From positions 1 through 37,779 of the forward strand of contig JAUXCW010000005.1 of the NCBI GenBank assembly GCA_030618705.1: DNA of 37,779 bases, given 5' to 3'. This document shows positions 7,217 through 30,925 of this stretch, one piece after another. The position numbers were made by a program, and so were the translations under genes. The DNA comes from Gammaproteobacteria bacterium (GTDB taxonomy: Bacteria; Pseudomonadota; Gammaproteobacteria; Pseudomonadales; JAHEGP01). The number at the start of each line of letters is the position of its first letter. Within the stretch, counting starts at the first letter, position 1. The notes under the pieces are model-generated. The model did not search any database. It was not told where the DNA came from and saw only the letters and a list, made by a program, of their open reading frames with translations.

Positions 7217-7253
7217 TTTAAAGGGGGCAGATCTCAATGGCGCTGACTTAAGC
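7217..7253 (+). repeat. Direct repeat copy 1: TTTAAAGGGGGCAGATCTCAATGGCGCTGACTTAAGC
   Basis: Near-identical copy at 8835-8870 in the same orientation (three substitutions and one extra G by eye). Confidence 0.85.
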
Positions 7254-7370
7254 GATATTGATGGAGGGACCGGGGCTTCCAGGGCGCCTAGCTCGAGTCC
7301 TGGGCTGGGAGCCGCGGTTCCTTGCCCGACTGAATTCGGCCCTGGTGTTTTCAATCCCGCTTGGGCAAGC

Positions 7371-8834: not shown

Positions 8835-8870
8835 TTTAAAGGGGCAGACCTGAATGGCGCCGACTTAAGC
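8835..8870 (+). repeat. Direct repeat copy 2: TTTAAAGGGGCAGACCTGAATGGCGCCGACTTAAGC
   Basis: Matches copy 1 at 7217-7253; the two copies flank the lipoprotein gene. Confidence 0.85.
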
Positions 8871-22256: not shown

Positions 22257-23279
22257 TCAAGCCTGGGCGCTTATCTCTGTCAGGCCGAAGCGGCCTACCA
22301 GTTGTCGCAAGCGCGCCAGGTCTTCAGCCGATTGCGGAGCTAACTCGGCCAGCGGGTATTCCATTCCATATTGCGGATACTTGGATACACCAAACGTATG
22401 GTAGGGCATAAGTTCTATCTGTTTATAACCTTGCTCGGCAACGAAGCGGGCCGATTCCAGAATGTTTTCCGTCGAATCATTACAACCGGGAATCAAGGGC
22501 AGGCGAATGACCACATCTTTTGGATCCATGACGGCGAGCAGCCGTGACAGATTGGACAGAATAAGTGTATTACTCTGGCCGGTCAATTTTCGGTGCTGCG
22601 CATCATCCCGGTGCTTTAGGTCTACATACAACTGATCCAGGTGGTGCAGCAAGGGTTCGAAGTCATCCCAGGGCAGGTAGGCACCGGTTTCCAGCGCCGT
22701 GTGGATCCCGGCATCCTGGGCCTCTTCCAGCAAGGCCCGGCTAAACTGGTGTTGCATTAGCGGGTCACCACCACCGAGGGTCATGCCGCCACCGGAGCGG
22801 CGGTAAAAGGGGCGGTCCTTCTCCACCTCATCCATCACCTGGGCCACGGACATCTGCTTGCCGACTATTTTTAACGCATCCTCCAGGCAGGGTTCCACAC
22901 ACTCGCCACAAGCTGTACAGCGCTCGCGGTCAATAATAGGAATACCCTCTACATTCAGCGTAATCGCGTCCTCTGGGCATGCTGCAACGCAGGGCGCATC
23001 GCAGCCGTCATCGCCTTTACAGGCCGAGCGAATAAAACCGAGTTCCGGGCCCGCTTTCTGTGATTCCGGGTTGGAACACCAGAGGCAGGCCAGGGGGCAA
23101 CCCTTGAGGAAAACCAGGGTCCTGATGCCCTCGCCATCGTGGATAGAATAGCGCTGGATATTAAACACCCGACCAGTCAGTGCCCTGTTCCTGGTGTGGC
23201 GATTGACACCCTGGCGATTGGCATTCTGATTGAGCACAACTTGATCCTGACTGGGCACAGCATTACCCCTTTCGGTCAA
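22257..23279 (-). CDS. Glycyl-radical enzyme activating protein (radical SAM)
   Basis: VFNIQRYSIHDGEGIRTLVFLKGCPLACLWCSNPESQ (CX3CX2C); ferredoxin-like clusters GDDGCDAPCVAACPEDAI and CTACGECVEPCLEDAL; SGGGMTLGGGDPL. ORF-track start is TTG 23279 overlapping the GRE stop codon; the true start may be internal. Confidence 0.95.
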   Translation of the reverse strand: MTERGNAVPSQDQVVLNQNANRQGVNRHTRNRALTGRVFNIQRYSIHDGEGIRTLVFLKGCPLACLWCSNPESQKAGPELGFIRSACKGDDGCDAPCVAACPEDAITLNVEGIPIIDRERCTACGECVEPCLEDALKIVGKQMSVAQVMDEVEKDRPFYRRSGGGMTLGGGDPLMQHQFSRALLEEAQDAGIHTALETGAYLPWDDFEPLLHHLDQLYVDLKHRDDAQHRKLTGQSNTLILSNLSRLLAVMDPKDVVIRLPLIPGCNDSTENILESARFVAEQGYKQIELMPYHTFGVSKYPQYGMEYPLAELAPQSAEDLARLRQLVGRFGLTEISAQA

Positions 23280-25726
23280 AACGAGTGTTCTGTTCTGGCA
23301 ATAATATCTATCTGTGTCGCCCTATCCAGTTCGACGAAGAAGGCGCTGTAGCCGACGACTCGCACCACCAGGTTCCTGTGCTCCTCGGGGTGCTCCAGGG
23401 CGTCTTTCAAGGTTTCGGCATCGACGATATTAAACTGCATCTCCCAACCGCCAAGGTCAAAATAGGTTCTCACCAGGTTGGCCCAGTTTCGAAGGCCGGC
23501 TTTGGTGTTCATCGACGCCGGGTGCATCTTCATGTTGTAGATCGTTCCCTGCACCAGGTTCACATGCGCCAGGCTGGATACCGACTTGGCCGAGGCCGTG
23601 GGGCCACTTACATCGGCACCCTGGGTCGGTGAGACACTGTCTGACAAGGGCGTGCCGGCCTTGCGCCCATCCGGGGTCGCGCCACAGAGCATACCGTAGC
23701 CCACATGAGCCGTTACCGGGGAGACTGTCGTGCCATAGATCGCCCCGAACTCGGTTTTATACTGGCGCAGTTCCTTGACGATGATATCGAGACACTCCCG
23801 GGCAATAAGGTCCACCTCGGGCACATCGTTACCGTACTTCGGCACCCGCTTGCACAGGCTCTGGATCTCGGGGCCGGTGGGAGCCGTGGTTTCATCCTCG
23901 AAGTTGGTGTCCAGCGCGTGCACGAGCTGCGATATGGTCAGCACTTTATCATCGAAGACCAGTTTTTTTAGCGCCATCATGGAATCACCCAGCGTGGCAA
24001 TTCCGATGTAACAAGCATTCAGGGTTGCGTTGCCGTACATGGCGCCACCCTCATAGTGCCCCTTGCCTCGACCGATACAATCCCGGGTAATTGAGGAAAT
24101 ATAAGGGCTGGGACGATAGGTGTTATGTCCTTCAACCAGCGGCAGGGCCTGGGTAAAAGCGAAGCGGGCAAACTGTTTAGCCTGCACCTTGTAAGCCGCC
24201 CATACATCGTCAAAGTTCTGCCATTGCAGCATATCGCCGCCGTCGTCCAGTGGCTGTCCGTTCCAGATATTGGTGTTGGCCAGCATCAGCTCGAACATGC
24301 GGGGACCACTTACGCCCTGATAAGCCAGACCCTCGGTGCCCCGACCGGCGAAGGCGATTTCCGAACAACCGATAATGCTGTAATCATTGGCGTCTTCAGC
24401 GGTCATATTCGGTACATTGGCCAACTGACTGGGGATAATCACCTCGTCGTTAAACATCGCCGGGTGACCACCGCCGTGGCTTTTTACCGCCTCGCCACAC
24501 CTGATCAGGAATTTCTCCGAGGTCCGGTTGTGCACCCGCGCCGATACCGTGGGCTCAGCGACATGCATACGTGAAGAGACTTCCAGAAACAGGAAGGAAA
24601 GCTCGTTAGTCGCGTCCAGGCCGTCGGGTGTCTTACCGCCGATGGGCATTTGAATCCAGAACGGGTAACCGGAGAAATTGGAACAAACATACTCGGGGAC
24701 CACGCGATTGGACTCGGAAAACTTGAGCCACATACATTCCATCAGCTCCACCGCCTCGTCAACGGTGAGTTTGCCTTCCTCGATATCCTGGCGGTAGTAC
24801 GGCAGCAGGCACTGATCCAGTCGCCCGGTGCCGATGGAAACGCCGTTGGTTTCTATCTGCACCGAGGCCATCACCATGGTCGCGACCTGTACCGCATCAC
24901 GGAAATCCCGGGCGGGATTGGCCGGCACCCACTCGCAGATCTCGGCGATTTTTTCCAGTTCGGCTTTTCTTTGTGGATCCTGCTCTGCGGCTGCCTGCTC
25001 ACGAGCCAGGTCGGCAAAACGCCCGGCCCACTTTATTACCGCCTTATCGCAAATGATAGCGGCTTGCAAAAACTGATGCTTCGTGCGGTCTTCGGCCCGG
25101 GTCAGGTCCAAACGACTGATATGTTCTTCGGCGCGTTCAATAAAACCGTTGAGACCAATTTCGATAACATCCTGGATATTCGGCGCCAGATGCCCGATAC
25201 CTCCTTCCATCGCCATGTCCACCAGGGTAAAGGCGGTGACCATTGAAAATTCTTTAATGACCTCAGGAGTAATCCCGTTAATCAGGGATTTGAGATTGCG
25301 ATCCTTCCAGTAGCTCATGCAGCCCACGATCGCCAATTTGTCTTCAGCAGCGATGTTCCAGGGGTCAGTGGGACGGGAGGATATGGTATCCAGCTCCGGC
25401 TCAATCCAGGAGCAATCGTACTCCGGGAACAGAAACGCCCCGCGGGGTCGCGAGGCGATATTGGCGACAATTAACTCCCCCGGTTGAATCCATATCGGCA
25501 TCTCGCTCAGGACTTTTTCAAAAGCCAGGGCCTGGCGCATCACCGGTGGCAGGGATTCCGTGCTTTTAAAGGATTCGGTGACAAGCAGGCTGCGCTCGGA
25601 GCAAATGGTGTGGGAATGACTCATATAGAGTTCGCGCAGCTTTTCCATTCGCTCGGTGCTGGGTCCGCCACTCATATCCCGATCTTCGACCGCCAGTTCT
25701 TCGTTTACCTCGACCTCATGCAGCAT
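23276..25726 (-). CDS. Glycyl radical enzyme (pyruvate formate-lyase-like family), substrate unknown
   Basis: C-terminal glycyl radical motif RVVGYSAFF (Gly codon 23351-23353); active-site motif NDYSIIGCSEIAFAGRGTEG (Cys codon 24365-24367); N-terminal PFL-like features (SHTICSERSLLVTES, WIQPGELIVAN). Confidence 0.96.
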   Translation of the reverse strand: MLHEVEVNEELAVEDRDMSGGPSTERMEKLRELYMSHSHTICSERSLLVTESFKSTESLPPVMRQALAFEKVLSEMPIWIQPGELIVANIASRPRGAFLFPEYDCSWIEPELDTISSRPTDPWNIAAEDKLAIVGCMSYWKDRNLKSLINGITPEVIKEFSMVTAFTLVDMAMEGGIGHLAPNIQDVIEIGLNGFIERAEEHISRLDLTRAEDRTKHQFLQAAIICDKAVIKWAGRFADLAREQAAAEQDPQRKAELEKIAEICEWVPANPARDFRDAVQVATMVMASVQIETNGVSIGTGRLDQCLLPYYRQDIEEGKLTVDEAVELMECMWLKFSESNRVVPEYVCSNFSGYPFWIQMPIGGKTPDGLDATNELSFLFLEVSSRMHVAEPTVSARVHNRTSEKFLIRCGEAVKSHGGGHPAMFNDEVIIPSQLANVPNMTAEDANDYSIIGCSEIAFAGRGTEGLAYQGVSGPRMFELMLANTNIWNGQPLDDGGDMLQWQNFDDVWAAYKVQAKQFARFAFTQALPLVEGHNTYRPSPYISSITRDCIGRGKGHYEGGAMYGNATLNACYIGIATLGDSMMALKKLVFDDKVLTISQLVHALDTNFEDETTAPTGPEIQSLCKRVPKYGNDVPEVDLIARECLDIIVKELRQYKTEFGAIYGTTVSPVTAHVGYGMLCGATPDGRKAGTPLSDSVSPTQGADVSGPTASAKSVSSLAHVNLVQGTIYNMKMHPASMNTKAGLRNWANLVRTYFDLGGWEMQFNIVDAETLKDALEHPEEHRNLVVRVVGYSAFFVELDRATQIDIIARTEHSF

Positions 25727-27189: not shown

Positions 27190-28392
27190 TCATTCATTCA
27201 ACGGGCAGCGAATACCCCCCGGTGCCTCGATCAGCGAGGCGCAGAGATTGCAGTGAGTGCAGCCGTTTTTGTAGTTGCCATCGGCCATGGCGTTTATGAC
27301 GTAGTTAGGGTCCTTGATCAGCGGTCGGCCCAGTTGCACAAAGTCGAAGCCCTCTTTCATTACGGTTTCCAGGCTTTCCAACTCGGTGCAGCCGCCGATA
27401 TAAACCATCTGGCAGTCGACCCGGTCGCGGATCTTTTTGGCGTCCTCCAGGAAGTACAGTTCGTAGTAGGGGTAGTCCTTGAACATCTTGCTGCCGATCA
27501 GTTTGAGGCCGAGTTTGGCAATCGGATTGGTCTGCTGCTCGATAAGGCCCACTGCCAGGCTGTCGCCGCGGAAGTAGACCATGGGATTGAATGGGCTGGT
27601 GCCGCCGGAGCAAATCAGCGCGTCTATGCCGCCACTATCAAACATGGCGGCGATCTCGATGGCTTCCTCCAGGTGGATGCCGTCGCCCACGCCATCGGTC
27701 ATATTCATCTTGCCCATAATGGGGAACCCGTCGCCCACGGCGGTTTTAACGGCCTCCAATACGCGCAGCGGCAATCGCATGCGGTTTTCCAGGCTGCCGC
27801 CGTACTCATCGGTGCGTTTGTTGGTGCGGGGGCTGATAAACTGGCTAAGCCCGTAGCCGTGGCCGAAGTGAATTTCGGCGGCGTCAAAGCCGACGTCCTT
27901 CATTAACAGCGCGGCGTCGCGATAGGTTTGTACCAGGTAGTCGATGTCCTTGATCGTCATGGCGCCGGCAAAGGGGGCGCCCGAGGCCGCGCCCAGCATA
28001 TTGAACGCCTTGCTCGGCCCCAGTGGTCGCTTGAGGCGTTGCATTTTGCGAATCTTCGAGAAGTTGCCGCAGTGGGTCATCTGGCCCGATACCGTGACAT
28101 CCGGACTCACGGTTTTGAGTTCTCGAATCATGCTCGTCAGTTGCGGACGCACACCTTCATGTAACCACATCATCTGGTCGTTGATGCGTCCATCGGCCTC
28201 GGTGGTGCAGTAGCCGATCGTGGTCATGGCGACACCCCCGGCGACGACCTCCTTGTGGAAAGTCTGCAATAGTTCGCCGGGAACGCCATCGGGGGTTTTC
28301 CCCTCATAGGTGGCAGCCTTGATGATACGGTTTTTCAACTGCAGATTGCCCAGCTTTGCCGGGGTGAAGGCTTTATCCAGATACTCGCTCAT
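27190..28392 (-). CDS. Old yellow enzyme-like NADH:flavin oxidoreductase
   Basis: FTPAKLGNLQLKNRIIKAATYEGKTPDGVP; DAAEIHFGHGYGLSQFISPRTNKRTDEYGGSLENRMRLPLRVLEAVK; FVQLGRPLIKDPNYV. Ends with CTHCNLCASLIEAPGGIRCPLNE. Confidence 0.93.
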   Translation of the reverse strand: MSEYLDKAFTPAKLGNLQLKNRIIKAATYEGKTPDGVPGELLQTFHKEVVAGGVAMTTIGYCTTEADGRINDQMMWLHEGVRPQLTSMIRELKTVSPDVTVSGQMTHCGNFSKIRKMQRLKRPLGPSKAFNMLGAASGAPFAGAMTIKDIDYLVQTYRDAALLMKDVGFDAAEIHFGHGYGLSQFISPRTNKRTDEYGGSLENRMRLPLRVLEAVKTAVGDGFPIMGKMNMTDGVGDGIHLEEAIEIAAMFDSGGIDALICSGGTSPFNPMVYFRGDSLAVGLIEQQTNPIAKLGLKLIGSKMFKDYPYYELYFLEDAKKIRDRVDCQMVYIGGCTELESLETVMKEGFDFVQLGRPLIKDPNYVINAMADGNYKNGCTHCNLCASLIEAPGGIRCPLNE

Positions 28393-28444
28393 AATTGCCT
28401 CTTAAATAAATGGTGCCGAACTAAACGATAGTGACAGAGGGGGC

Positions 28445-28582
28445 GGGACTTCCAAGGCAGGACCGTGCGCCGGTTGGCCGGGTTTGTTCCAGACAAACCC
28501 TGAGGCCCCAACGTCCATGTCGTGGACCCGGCGCCCGAGCCTACATGGATGTATTCACGGCGCGTCCTGGCTTGGGAGTCCC
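28445..28582. repeat. Structured intergenic element bounded by a 19-bp imperfect inverted repeat, with internal hairpins
   Basis: GGGACTTCCAAGGCAGGAC (28445-28463) pairs with GTCCTGGCTTGGGAGTCCC (28564-28582), 17/19; perfect hairpin GGGTTTGT-TCCAG-ACAAACCC (28480-28500); TCCATGT/ACATGGA also pair. Confidence 0.7.
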
Positions 28583-28663
28583 GATTCCTCCTGAATTGGT
28601 GAACGCCTTGCCTTATTGACTTGAATCTAAACCAAGCACTATTTACCTCATAATCCATTGATG

Positions 28664-30925
28664 TTAATGCGGCAACCGCGGCGTCTCGCCCCGCGGCTGG
28701 TCGACGAATATCGGTGAGGACCAGGCGCGCTCGGACACGGGTGCCAGGCAGTCATCGCTGAAATCGGTGCGGTAGTCGCCGTAGCAGGGATCCATGGATA
28801 CCAGTTCTCCTGCCTTGTTGAGCTTTGCTCTCAGGTTGGCGCCGTTTATGGCCGGGGTAGCTGCCTGTAGCGCGCGCACATAATAGAGGCTGTCCCGGCC
28901 GTCTTTGCGATAGTCCGGATCTTCAAACCGCACTATACAGCCCTGTGGATCACCGGGGCACTCAAGCCGCAGCCATGGATCCTCGATCAACTCATCCACC
29001 GGTTCGGAAGGATAGCTCTGGGGGCGTATCCGTACCACCTCGATGGCGGTGATGACTTCCCGCTCGTCGTCCGGATGGTAGCATTCCCCGGCGCAGAGAT
29101 AATCCAGTCGTTCGGGGCTCAGCCCGTCCACCGCATCCGCCGGGCAACCCGGTTTCTGATTGAAAGCGCCCACCGCCCGAACCTCGAATATCGGGTTTTC
29201 TGCCATGCTCGTCCCCGAGCCCATGGGCAGTTGACCCGAGGGGGAATTGAGCAGGTCGAACCACAGCAGCATGCGTGGTCCGGAGGTGCCATAAACTTCC
29301 TTGCGTTTTAGGCCGGCCCAGATATCTTCGCGGCGGCGGCTGTCGGCGTGTACCGCGACGATGCCGCCGGGGTAGAGAAAGCTCTGCATTCGCTCCATGT
29401 CGGGAATCGGGGTGCTGCTTACGACACGTTGGGGCATCTGCGAGTCTTCGGACTCTCCAGCCAGGGACACAAGCCCGCCGTAAAAATCGCTACGGGGCCC
29501 GGTCACCAGTGTCATCTTGCGCCGCTGGTATTGTTTGTATCCCGTGCCGGGCCTTGAGGTGTGGTCGTCGGTCGAGGCGATAAAGCCGAAACGAAAGCGC
29601 AGGGGCTTGCCCTGCTTATCGACTTCGTCGAAATTGCTGATGGCCATGGCGTACTGGGAGCTTTCCGTGAACACCTGGTTGAAGGCCGGCTTGAAACAGT
29701 CGGTACACTGGCCACACTGCTGCCAGTCTTCGGCATGGGTGTCCGGGAACACGCCGAGGTAGGCACTGCCCGCCTCCACGGCATATTGCCGCGCCAGTTC
29801 TACCCGGGATTCGCATTCAGTCTCGCTCAAGCCCTCGCAGCGATTGCGCATGATCTCACCGGCCTGCCAACAGCAGGGGATATAACTGCCTTGCGGTTCA
29901 GGGCAGCTGAGACTGTCATCGGCATTGGCGATAGCCTGATGCAGGGGGCGGTACTCTTCGCTGTTGCCGTGTCCGGACATGACTTCCAGCAGGGGTTGGC
30001 GCTGATCGTCGTGGTATTTCCGCGCCAGGGCTTTATCCCAGCTGGCGGCGGGCGGCGTATAGGAACCCCAGGAGTTGCCGTGGGGGATGACCATGTGCTC
30101 GAAGCCCCACTCGTCCAACTTGCGATACAGGATATCCGGCGAGGGCGCGTTCTCAAAGCAGTCCGCGGGCAGGTCGCGGGTGTTGGCCTGTGTGTCGCAG
30201 CCGGGCACTTCGGCGATATCGTCCAGCAGGCGCAGCAGGTTTGCATAGGATTTCCAGTTGAGCGGATCGATGTAGCGACCGCCTCCGGCCCGGCGGGACA
30301 GGGCAAACACACCGAGGTCGTCAGGGGTGGCGCGGGCGCTGATGGGGCGCAGGGGCAACTCATCGTCAGCGATTCCCGGAAAGATCACGTTCTTGTGGCC
30401 CCAGTGGGCGTTGGCCGCGGTGGACATCTGGGTCCATTCCCAGCCGGCGAAGGCGACCAGGTCCGGGTTATCCGCATCGGCGCTGGCGTTGCAGGCCCGC
30501 ACGGTGTCTTTGGTGGCCTGCCAGTGTTTGGGCGTCAGCCCCTCAGCATGATCGTTATAGCTAAAGAAATCCAGTTTGCCGCAGTAGCGGGCGAAGTCGC
30601 AGGCATCGGCAACGGTATGCAGGCCCTGTTGGCCCATAATGGGGAGCTCCATGACGAAGGCATCCACCGAGTAGGTGCTGTGAACATGCAGGTCGCCAAA
30701 CAAAATTTGCCTGGCCTCTGTCTTGCCAATGGAAGCGGCAGCGGATTCCCGGGCGGATTGACGTTTCTCTAACGATGTCGAGGGCAGTGCGCTGCCGGTG
30801 ACTGTGCCGGCGGGGTGGGGGTCGCCACCGCAAGACGAGAGCGTGGCTAGCAGGGCCAGCATGAGTGGAATAGATGCTTTGTTCAGAAGTTTGCCCATGG
30901 TGCACCTGTAGAAATGCAGTGACAA
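28664..30925 (-). CDS. DUF3604-domain lipoprotein (PHP-like N-terminal motif)
   Basis: Lipobox-like [90 protein letters not shown]. Confidence 0.9.

Follow-up and report, generated by a model that had tools for sequence, protein, structure and literature searches.

The closest described relatives of the element treated here are the YPAL/RU-2 repeats of Yersinia, for which the published Y. pestis sequence comes from Delihas 2007 (PMC2759123), and which have been reported to be co-transcribed with upstream genes (PMC2229807). The printed RU-2 sequence, of 168 nt, has the same core arrangement as the element described below, namely an outer stem, a hairpin 1 with an AAGGAU loop and a hairpin 2 of sequence ACATGGATGT, and the Rfam family Ysr224 (RF02770) is the opposite strand of this YPAL/RU-2 core. 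A second point of comparison is the binding site of CsrA, which has the consensus RUACARGGAUGU and presents ANGGAN in a hexaloop that AC/GU closes; the protein bridges two such sites when they stand 10-63 nt apart, optimally at more than 18 nt (PMC7652899, PMC3791407); very stable stems were disfavoured for such sites in SELEX (PMC7652899). CsrA binding has also been proposed for the TwoAYGGAY RNA (RF01731) by Gardner and colleagues (PMC4333381).

The locus lies in a window of 37,779 nucleotides, the whole stretch of DNA that was analysed, from a gammaproteobacterial genome of 3.4 Mb in 388 contigs that is 97% complete. An OYE-family gene (27190-28392, - strand) and a gene of 753 amino acids (28664-30925, - strand) flank a gap at 28393-28663, which extends from the end of the 753-aa gene to the start of the OYE-family gene. 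Scanning the gap for promoters and terminators gave no terminator and, on the - strand, a single weak promoter-like site. Elsewhere in the window, 23276-25726 is a glycyl radical enzyme whose best NCBIfam matches, PFL2-3 and sulfopropanediol dehydratase, are all under the curated cut-offs. An earlier note, made from the letters alone, had described a nest of stems in the gap, and each of them is present: the outer arms CGGGACTTCCAAGGCAGGAC (28444-28463) and GTCCTGGCTTGGGAGTCCCG (28564-28583), the hairpins GGGTTTGT-TCCAG-ACAAACCC (28480-28500) and GTCCA-TGTCG-TGGAC (28513-28527), and the segments TCCATGT (28514-28520) and ACATGGA (28543-28549). The note would have given up its structured element had the predicted fold been no more stable than shuffled sequence; the segment 28430-28600 folds at -94.7 kcal/mol on the + strand, where shuffles give -68.4 +/- 5.1 (z -5.2), and at -84.8 on the - strand, where they give -63.95 +/- 4.1 (z -5.1), with 0 of 200 shuffles reaching the native stability. 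The element itself, of about 237 bp, extends past the folded stem on both sides, and the Shine-Dalgarno-like AGAGG of the OYE-family gene is outside it. Its parts are as follows.

28408-28644, + strand: whole element, long form of an IS4-type MITE, delimited by degenerate terminal inverted repeats and by alignment with copies in its own genome
28397-28407, no strand: candidate left target-site duplication GCCTCTTAAAT, diverged; at best 8/12 against the right flank, equalled by about 7% of controls
28645-28655, no strand: candidate right target-site duplication ACCTCATAATC, diverged; at best 8/12 against the left flank, equalled by about 7% of controls
28409-28430, + strand: left terminal inverted repeat AATGGTGCCGAACTAAACGATA, in the same position as AATGGCACTTACTTAAGCGATA in other copies
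28622-28643, - strand: right terminal inverted repeat, complement AATAGTGCTTGGTTTAGATTCA, in the same position as CTTAAGTAAGTGCCATT in other copies
28444-28463, + strand: 5' arm of the outer stem, pairing with 28564-28583; the outer helix covaries across genomes
28564-28583, + strand: 3' arm of the outer stem, pairing with 28444-28463, with covariation
28464-28477, + strand: 5' half of hairpin 1, ending in GGTTGG; short copies have GGTTGGACCC here, and 9 of 9 hairpin 1 pairs covary
28478-28525, - strand: module A, 48 bp inserted between the GG and the A of loop 1, present in long copies and missing from most copies; it forms two hairpins whose - strand loops bear GGA (CTGGA, ACATGGACGT)
28526-28537, + strand: 3' half of hairpin 1, ACCCGGCGCCCG, from comparison of own-genome copies
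28539-28561, + strand: hairpin 2, GCC-UAC-AUGGAU-GUA-UUCAC-GGC; its C, A, GGA and G are kept in 148-150 of 150 covariance matches, and two stem pairs covary
28544-28551, + strand: CAUGGAUG, predicted CsrA-type site in hairpin 2

This element is one copy of many. BLAST of 28430-28600 against its own genome gives 68 matches, and a 30-mer of the core, allowing up to 3 mismatches, finds 63 sites where the reversed control finds 0, so that homologous copies, the lack of which would likewise have spoken against the note, are plentiful. The segment GCCTACATGGATGTATTCACGGCG, which the note likened to a dispersed repeat of marine gammaproteobacteria, does belong to a dispersed repeat, but one spread over Gammaproteobacteria generally rather than restricted to marine forms. 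Alignment of the own-genome copies places the ends of the element at AATGGCACTTACTTAAG...CTTAAGTAAGTGCCATT, beyond the folded part, and the end motif AATGGCACTTACTTAAG, at up to 2 mismatches, has 90 matches in this genome as against 1 for the control. The copies are non-coding, have terminal inverted repeats of the AATGGCACTTACTTAAG type and measure about 187-273 bp, most of them being short, at about 195 bp. Perfect direct repeats of 10-11 bp stand outside the ends in 7 of the 16 copies with both ends, whereas mismatched flank pairs, taken as a control, give none at an identity of at least 0.9; the target duplications in this genome are mostly of 11 bp. Furthermore, the same left end precedes a gene for an IS4-family transposase (NF033592, 220.7 bits), which begins at C170:9252 in an element that the end of the contig cuts off before its right end. 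The shared ends, the target duplications and this transposase mark the copies as MITEs of an IS4-family element: the repeat has inverted repeats (degenerate in the window copy), target-site duplication and a cognate autonomous element, in line with the MITE-like reading offered in the note. Mobility of the repeat is well supported, and we infer that the transposase at C170 moves the MITE copies. The window copy is an old one, with degenerate ends at 28409 and 28643.

The core of the repeat is a three-way junction of the outer stem and hairpins 1 and 2. In alignment A1, 22 of the 28 pairs show changes on both sides, and the 6 invariant ones are those of hairpin 2, which the search pattern had fixed; covariation is 0.655, as against 0.172 when shuffled and at most 0.18 when slid. 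All variable pairs covary among 43 diverse copies, and hairpin 2 varies too in the 150 covariance matches, with U-A and A-U pairs replaced by C-G. On the + strand G-U outnumbers A-C by 43 to 21 (p 0.008, from a sequence-based alignment in which kinship between copies is uncorrected), and the same excess is strong in the own-genome copies. Single-strand folding of the + strand would produce such an excess, yet because relatedness is uncorrected we treat it as a pointer only, one compatible with RNA or with single-stranded DNA. With the covariation, it backs for the core the structured RNA that the note had suggested.

The core reaches well beyond this genome. At least 117 gammaproteobacterial stretches contain an exact 23-mer pattern of it, from genera that include Methylotuvimicrobium, Marinobacter, Saccharospirillum, Rheinheimera, Shewanella, Stenotrophomonas, Thermomonas, Arenimonas, Yersinia and others. 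A covariance model built from 43 sequences, the search in relatives that the note had suggested, detects it in 50 of the 229 Gammaproteobacteria sampled; phylum-wide it is present in 19 of 299 genomes, and among the matches listed there all are Gammaproteobacteria; Yersinia is matched by this model as well. Copies number from 16 to at least 150 in the named genomes. The flanks around the core differ by genome, two or more frames, differing in their ends, coexist in M. buryatense alone, and alignment scores of frame against frame, set against shuffles, mostly stay at z <2 (two pairs reach 2.6 and 3.8). One M. buryatense locus (L145) is a chimera of halves from two MITE frames joined within the core, that is, a recombination between elements. 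Neither the element nor the consensus core has a match in phages, plasmids or E. coli genomes, although a contig labelled as a Klebsiella pneumoniae MAG (L124), which may be misnamed, holds several core copies.

Long copies are set apart by modules, of which A (48 bp) occupies loop 1, B the junction and C loop 2, while D replaces the 3' part. Modules A and C are alike in plan, with compensated stem differences, and both split their loop at GG^A, module A at TTGG^ACC and module C at CATGG^ATG. The window copy carries module A alone, which splits its loop 1 and leaves one intact + strand site. Methylotuvimicrobium and Saccharospirillum have a unit of the same plan in loop 1, likewise at GG^A, and in Methylotuvimicrobium these units are sometimes tandem 49-bp repeats. 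Indeed, the 17-mer TTTTTGCTCCTGCAAAA has 164 matches in M. buryatense (L342, G229) and 0 for the control; the matches listed include tandem runs at 49-bp spacing, and the loci that were read place them in the hairpin 1 loop or the outer stem. On their opposite strand the loop units form GGA hairpins, with CANGGANG in 26 of 27 collected units. In the window's own genome loop 1 is UUGGAC and not ANGGA; two loci there (L328, L329) represent a second subfamily, whose loop 1 is a canonical AGGGA or AUGGA and whose loop 2 carries module C. The window also holds, at 7236-7335, a core-less relative of the MITE with left end AATGGCGCTGACTTAAG, in which the outer stem is closed directly by a remainder of module D (GGCGCCTAGCTCG), and at 8853-8869 a lone end motif, AATGGCGCCGACTTAAG, without a partner and perhaps a remnant.

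Conservation in the two loops suggests what the core may do. Across the 150 matches, hairpin 2 keeps its C in 148, its A, G, G and A in 149 each and its final G in 150, with the N positions free, and the loop of hairpin 1, which the search pattern left unconstrained, converges on the same C-A-N-G-G-A-N-G. In 135 of 137, one GGA is separated from the other by 22-24 nt. For the core family this motif and spacing equal the published geometry of CsrA/RsmA sites; in the window's own genome this applies to hairpin 2 only, hairpin 1 having UUGGA. A csrA gene is found in that genome, and in 46 of 50 element-bearing genomes versus 148 of 179 others (Fisher p 0.12), or, among good-quality genomes, in 38 of 39 versus 138 of 159 (Fisher p 0.08), a weak association; in one element-bearing genome (G196, 98% complete) csrA was not found. 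Loop convergence, the 22-24 nt spacing, the literature geometry and the presence of csrA make a mobile CsrA/RsmA-binding RNA the best explanation of the repeat.

We therefore propose a model that is read from sequence patterns and that we hold tentatively, at somewhat less than an even chance, in which the repeat is a MITE carrying a mobile CsrA-binding RNA module. An IS4-family transposase would act on the MITE in trans, and the cargo of the MITE would be the conserved RNA module that forms the core of Yersinia YPAL/RU-2. Transcription of the + strand may then display two hairpins, with C-A-N-G-G-A-N-G loops 22-24 nt apart, that match a dual-site ligand for the CsrA/RsmA dimer, so that transcripts containing the core would most likely bind CsrA. 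Such binding is predicted to alter what becomes of the host transcript, or to titrate CsrA. Long copies, the window copy among them, add a second two-hairpin unit, inserted in loop 1, with its GGA loops on the other strand. Several observations count against this reading. Hairpin 1 and the outer stem have very high stability, Ysr224, the catalogued relative, is modelled on the - strand, loop 1 is UUGGAC in this genome and is split in the window copy, csrA was not found in G196 and its association with the element is weak, and in the sampled loci copies antisense to both neighbours outnumber sense ones by 31 to 12 (2 to 5 in the window's own genome). Unpaired residues beyond the CsrA reading are conserved as well, namely the UUCAC bulge, the A before and the G after hairpin 2 and the U before hairpin 1, and the reading gives no account of the insertions at GG^A. 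A wider form of the model, that unrelated MITE frames across Gammaproteobacteria independently kept the CsrA/RsmA-binding module as cargo, with transposition multiplying the sites to as many as hundreds per genome and CsrB-like loop arrays on the opposite strand, is possible but on balance doubtful. If CsrA/RsmA does bind, mobile elements would distribute and multiply the binding sites of a global regulator, and the RNA of 60 to more than 150 repeats could buffer CsrA.

The GG^A insertions are better accommodated if the hairpins work as DNA, in single-stranded or cruciform form, and guide a transposase or recombinase that recognises hairpins, in the manner of REP and RAYT, with the GGA loops as recognition letters and the modules spreading by insertion between GG and A. 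We consider this unlikely, even though such splits affect hairpins 1 and 2 here and, in Methylotuvimicrobium and Saccharospirillum, hairpin 1, close inverted pairs of the element are found in Arenimonas and Marinobacter, GTAG adjoins hairpin 1 on the - strand, the window's own genome has five Y1_Tnp matches, and one-strand DNA would also fit the G-U asymmetry. The explanation is weakened by the 10 of 50 element-bearing genomes in which Y1_Tnp is unmatched, among them G073, which is 97% complete and has 20 copies or more, and the 100% complete G202; moreover, the Y1_Tnp genes of the window's own genome have neither core nor end motif nearby, and the element there shows IS4-type ends and duplications instead. 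GTAG-REPs are palindromes of 20-40 bp tagged with GTAG, in genomes that have a RAYT gene; as the present element is larger, and given the genomes without Y1_Tnp, we disfavour a GTAG-REP/RAYT partnership.

Still less likely, in our estimate, is a structured RNA at transcript ends that alters the stability of neighbouring mRNA by folding alone, without CsrA, as has been proposed for YPAL and ERIC. Among the sampled loci, on crude ORF calls, 35 copies lie between convergent genes and 8 between divergent ones (p 4e-5), which agrees with such a role, as does the co-transcription of YPAL with upstream genes; however, the same bias indicates that promoters are avoided, and promoter avoidance alone gives this placement, while folding alone predicts neither C-A-N-G-G-A-N-G in two loops nor a fixed spacing of 22-24 nt. 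Orientation to both neighbours follows no clear rule, being antisense in 31 and sense in 12 cases in other genomes and sense in 5 and antisense in 2 in the window's own. An OYE-specific, riboswitch-like cis-regulatory leader, which the note had entertained and which the position directly upstream would put on the OYE transcript if its start were far upstream, can be dismissed as highly improbable, because the same element stands at no fewer than 60 other sites in the genome, has no Rfam match and no conserved link with OYE, faces OYE with its - strand and leaves the AGAGG of that gene outside.

Compared with known systems, the mobile CsrA-binding module that we favour shares features with several. 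With CsrB, CsrC, RsmY and RsmZ it has in common GGA hairpin loops, the ANGGAN hexaloop and multiple sites at bridging distance, but it is a dispersed mobile repeat with a three-way junction and extra conserved residues, and the basic element has only two predicted sites per strand. TwoAYGGAY likewise has two hairpins with AYGGAY-like loops, although its model (RF01731) matches neither the window copy (E up to 1) nor a strong relative (E up to 10), and we reject membership. REP, BIME and REPIN sequences with their RAYTs are also high-copy intergenic palindromes with occasional inverted pairs, whereas the present element is larger, has IS4-type ends and is present independently of Y1_Tnp. Searching Rfam with the window copy and its relatives gave Ysr224, in a Yersinia locus, as the sole real match; low-scoring miRNA and RsmW matches (E up to 10) we take to be chance. 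In the searchable full-text literature the core sequence appears in Delihas 2007 alone, and in that same literature we found neither its wide spread, nor its carriage by unrelated frames, nor the CsrA reading. As Yersinia YPAL/RU-2 shares the core, the kind is already known; what is new here is a wider range and a testable function for a YPAL/RU-2-type core, of which papers beyond the searched literature may describe more. YPAL/RU-2 has the same core sequence and fold, and is likewise intergenic, multi-copy and flanked by target duplications, but it lacks IS-type ends and its duplications are of 3-26 bp, the loop modules and the UUGGAC loop 1 are features of the present element, and the outer sequences are mostly unrelated. 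With its IS4-type termini and mostly 11-bp duplications, the element is thus a relative of YPAL through the core and not YPAL itself. YPAL/RU-2 and Ysr224, known only from Yersinia (and Erwinia), are thereby tied to a structured RNA that extends across Gammaproteobacteria and of which Rfam holds the Yersinia entry, Ysr224, alone.
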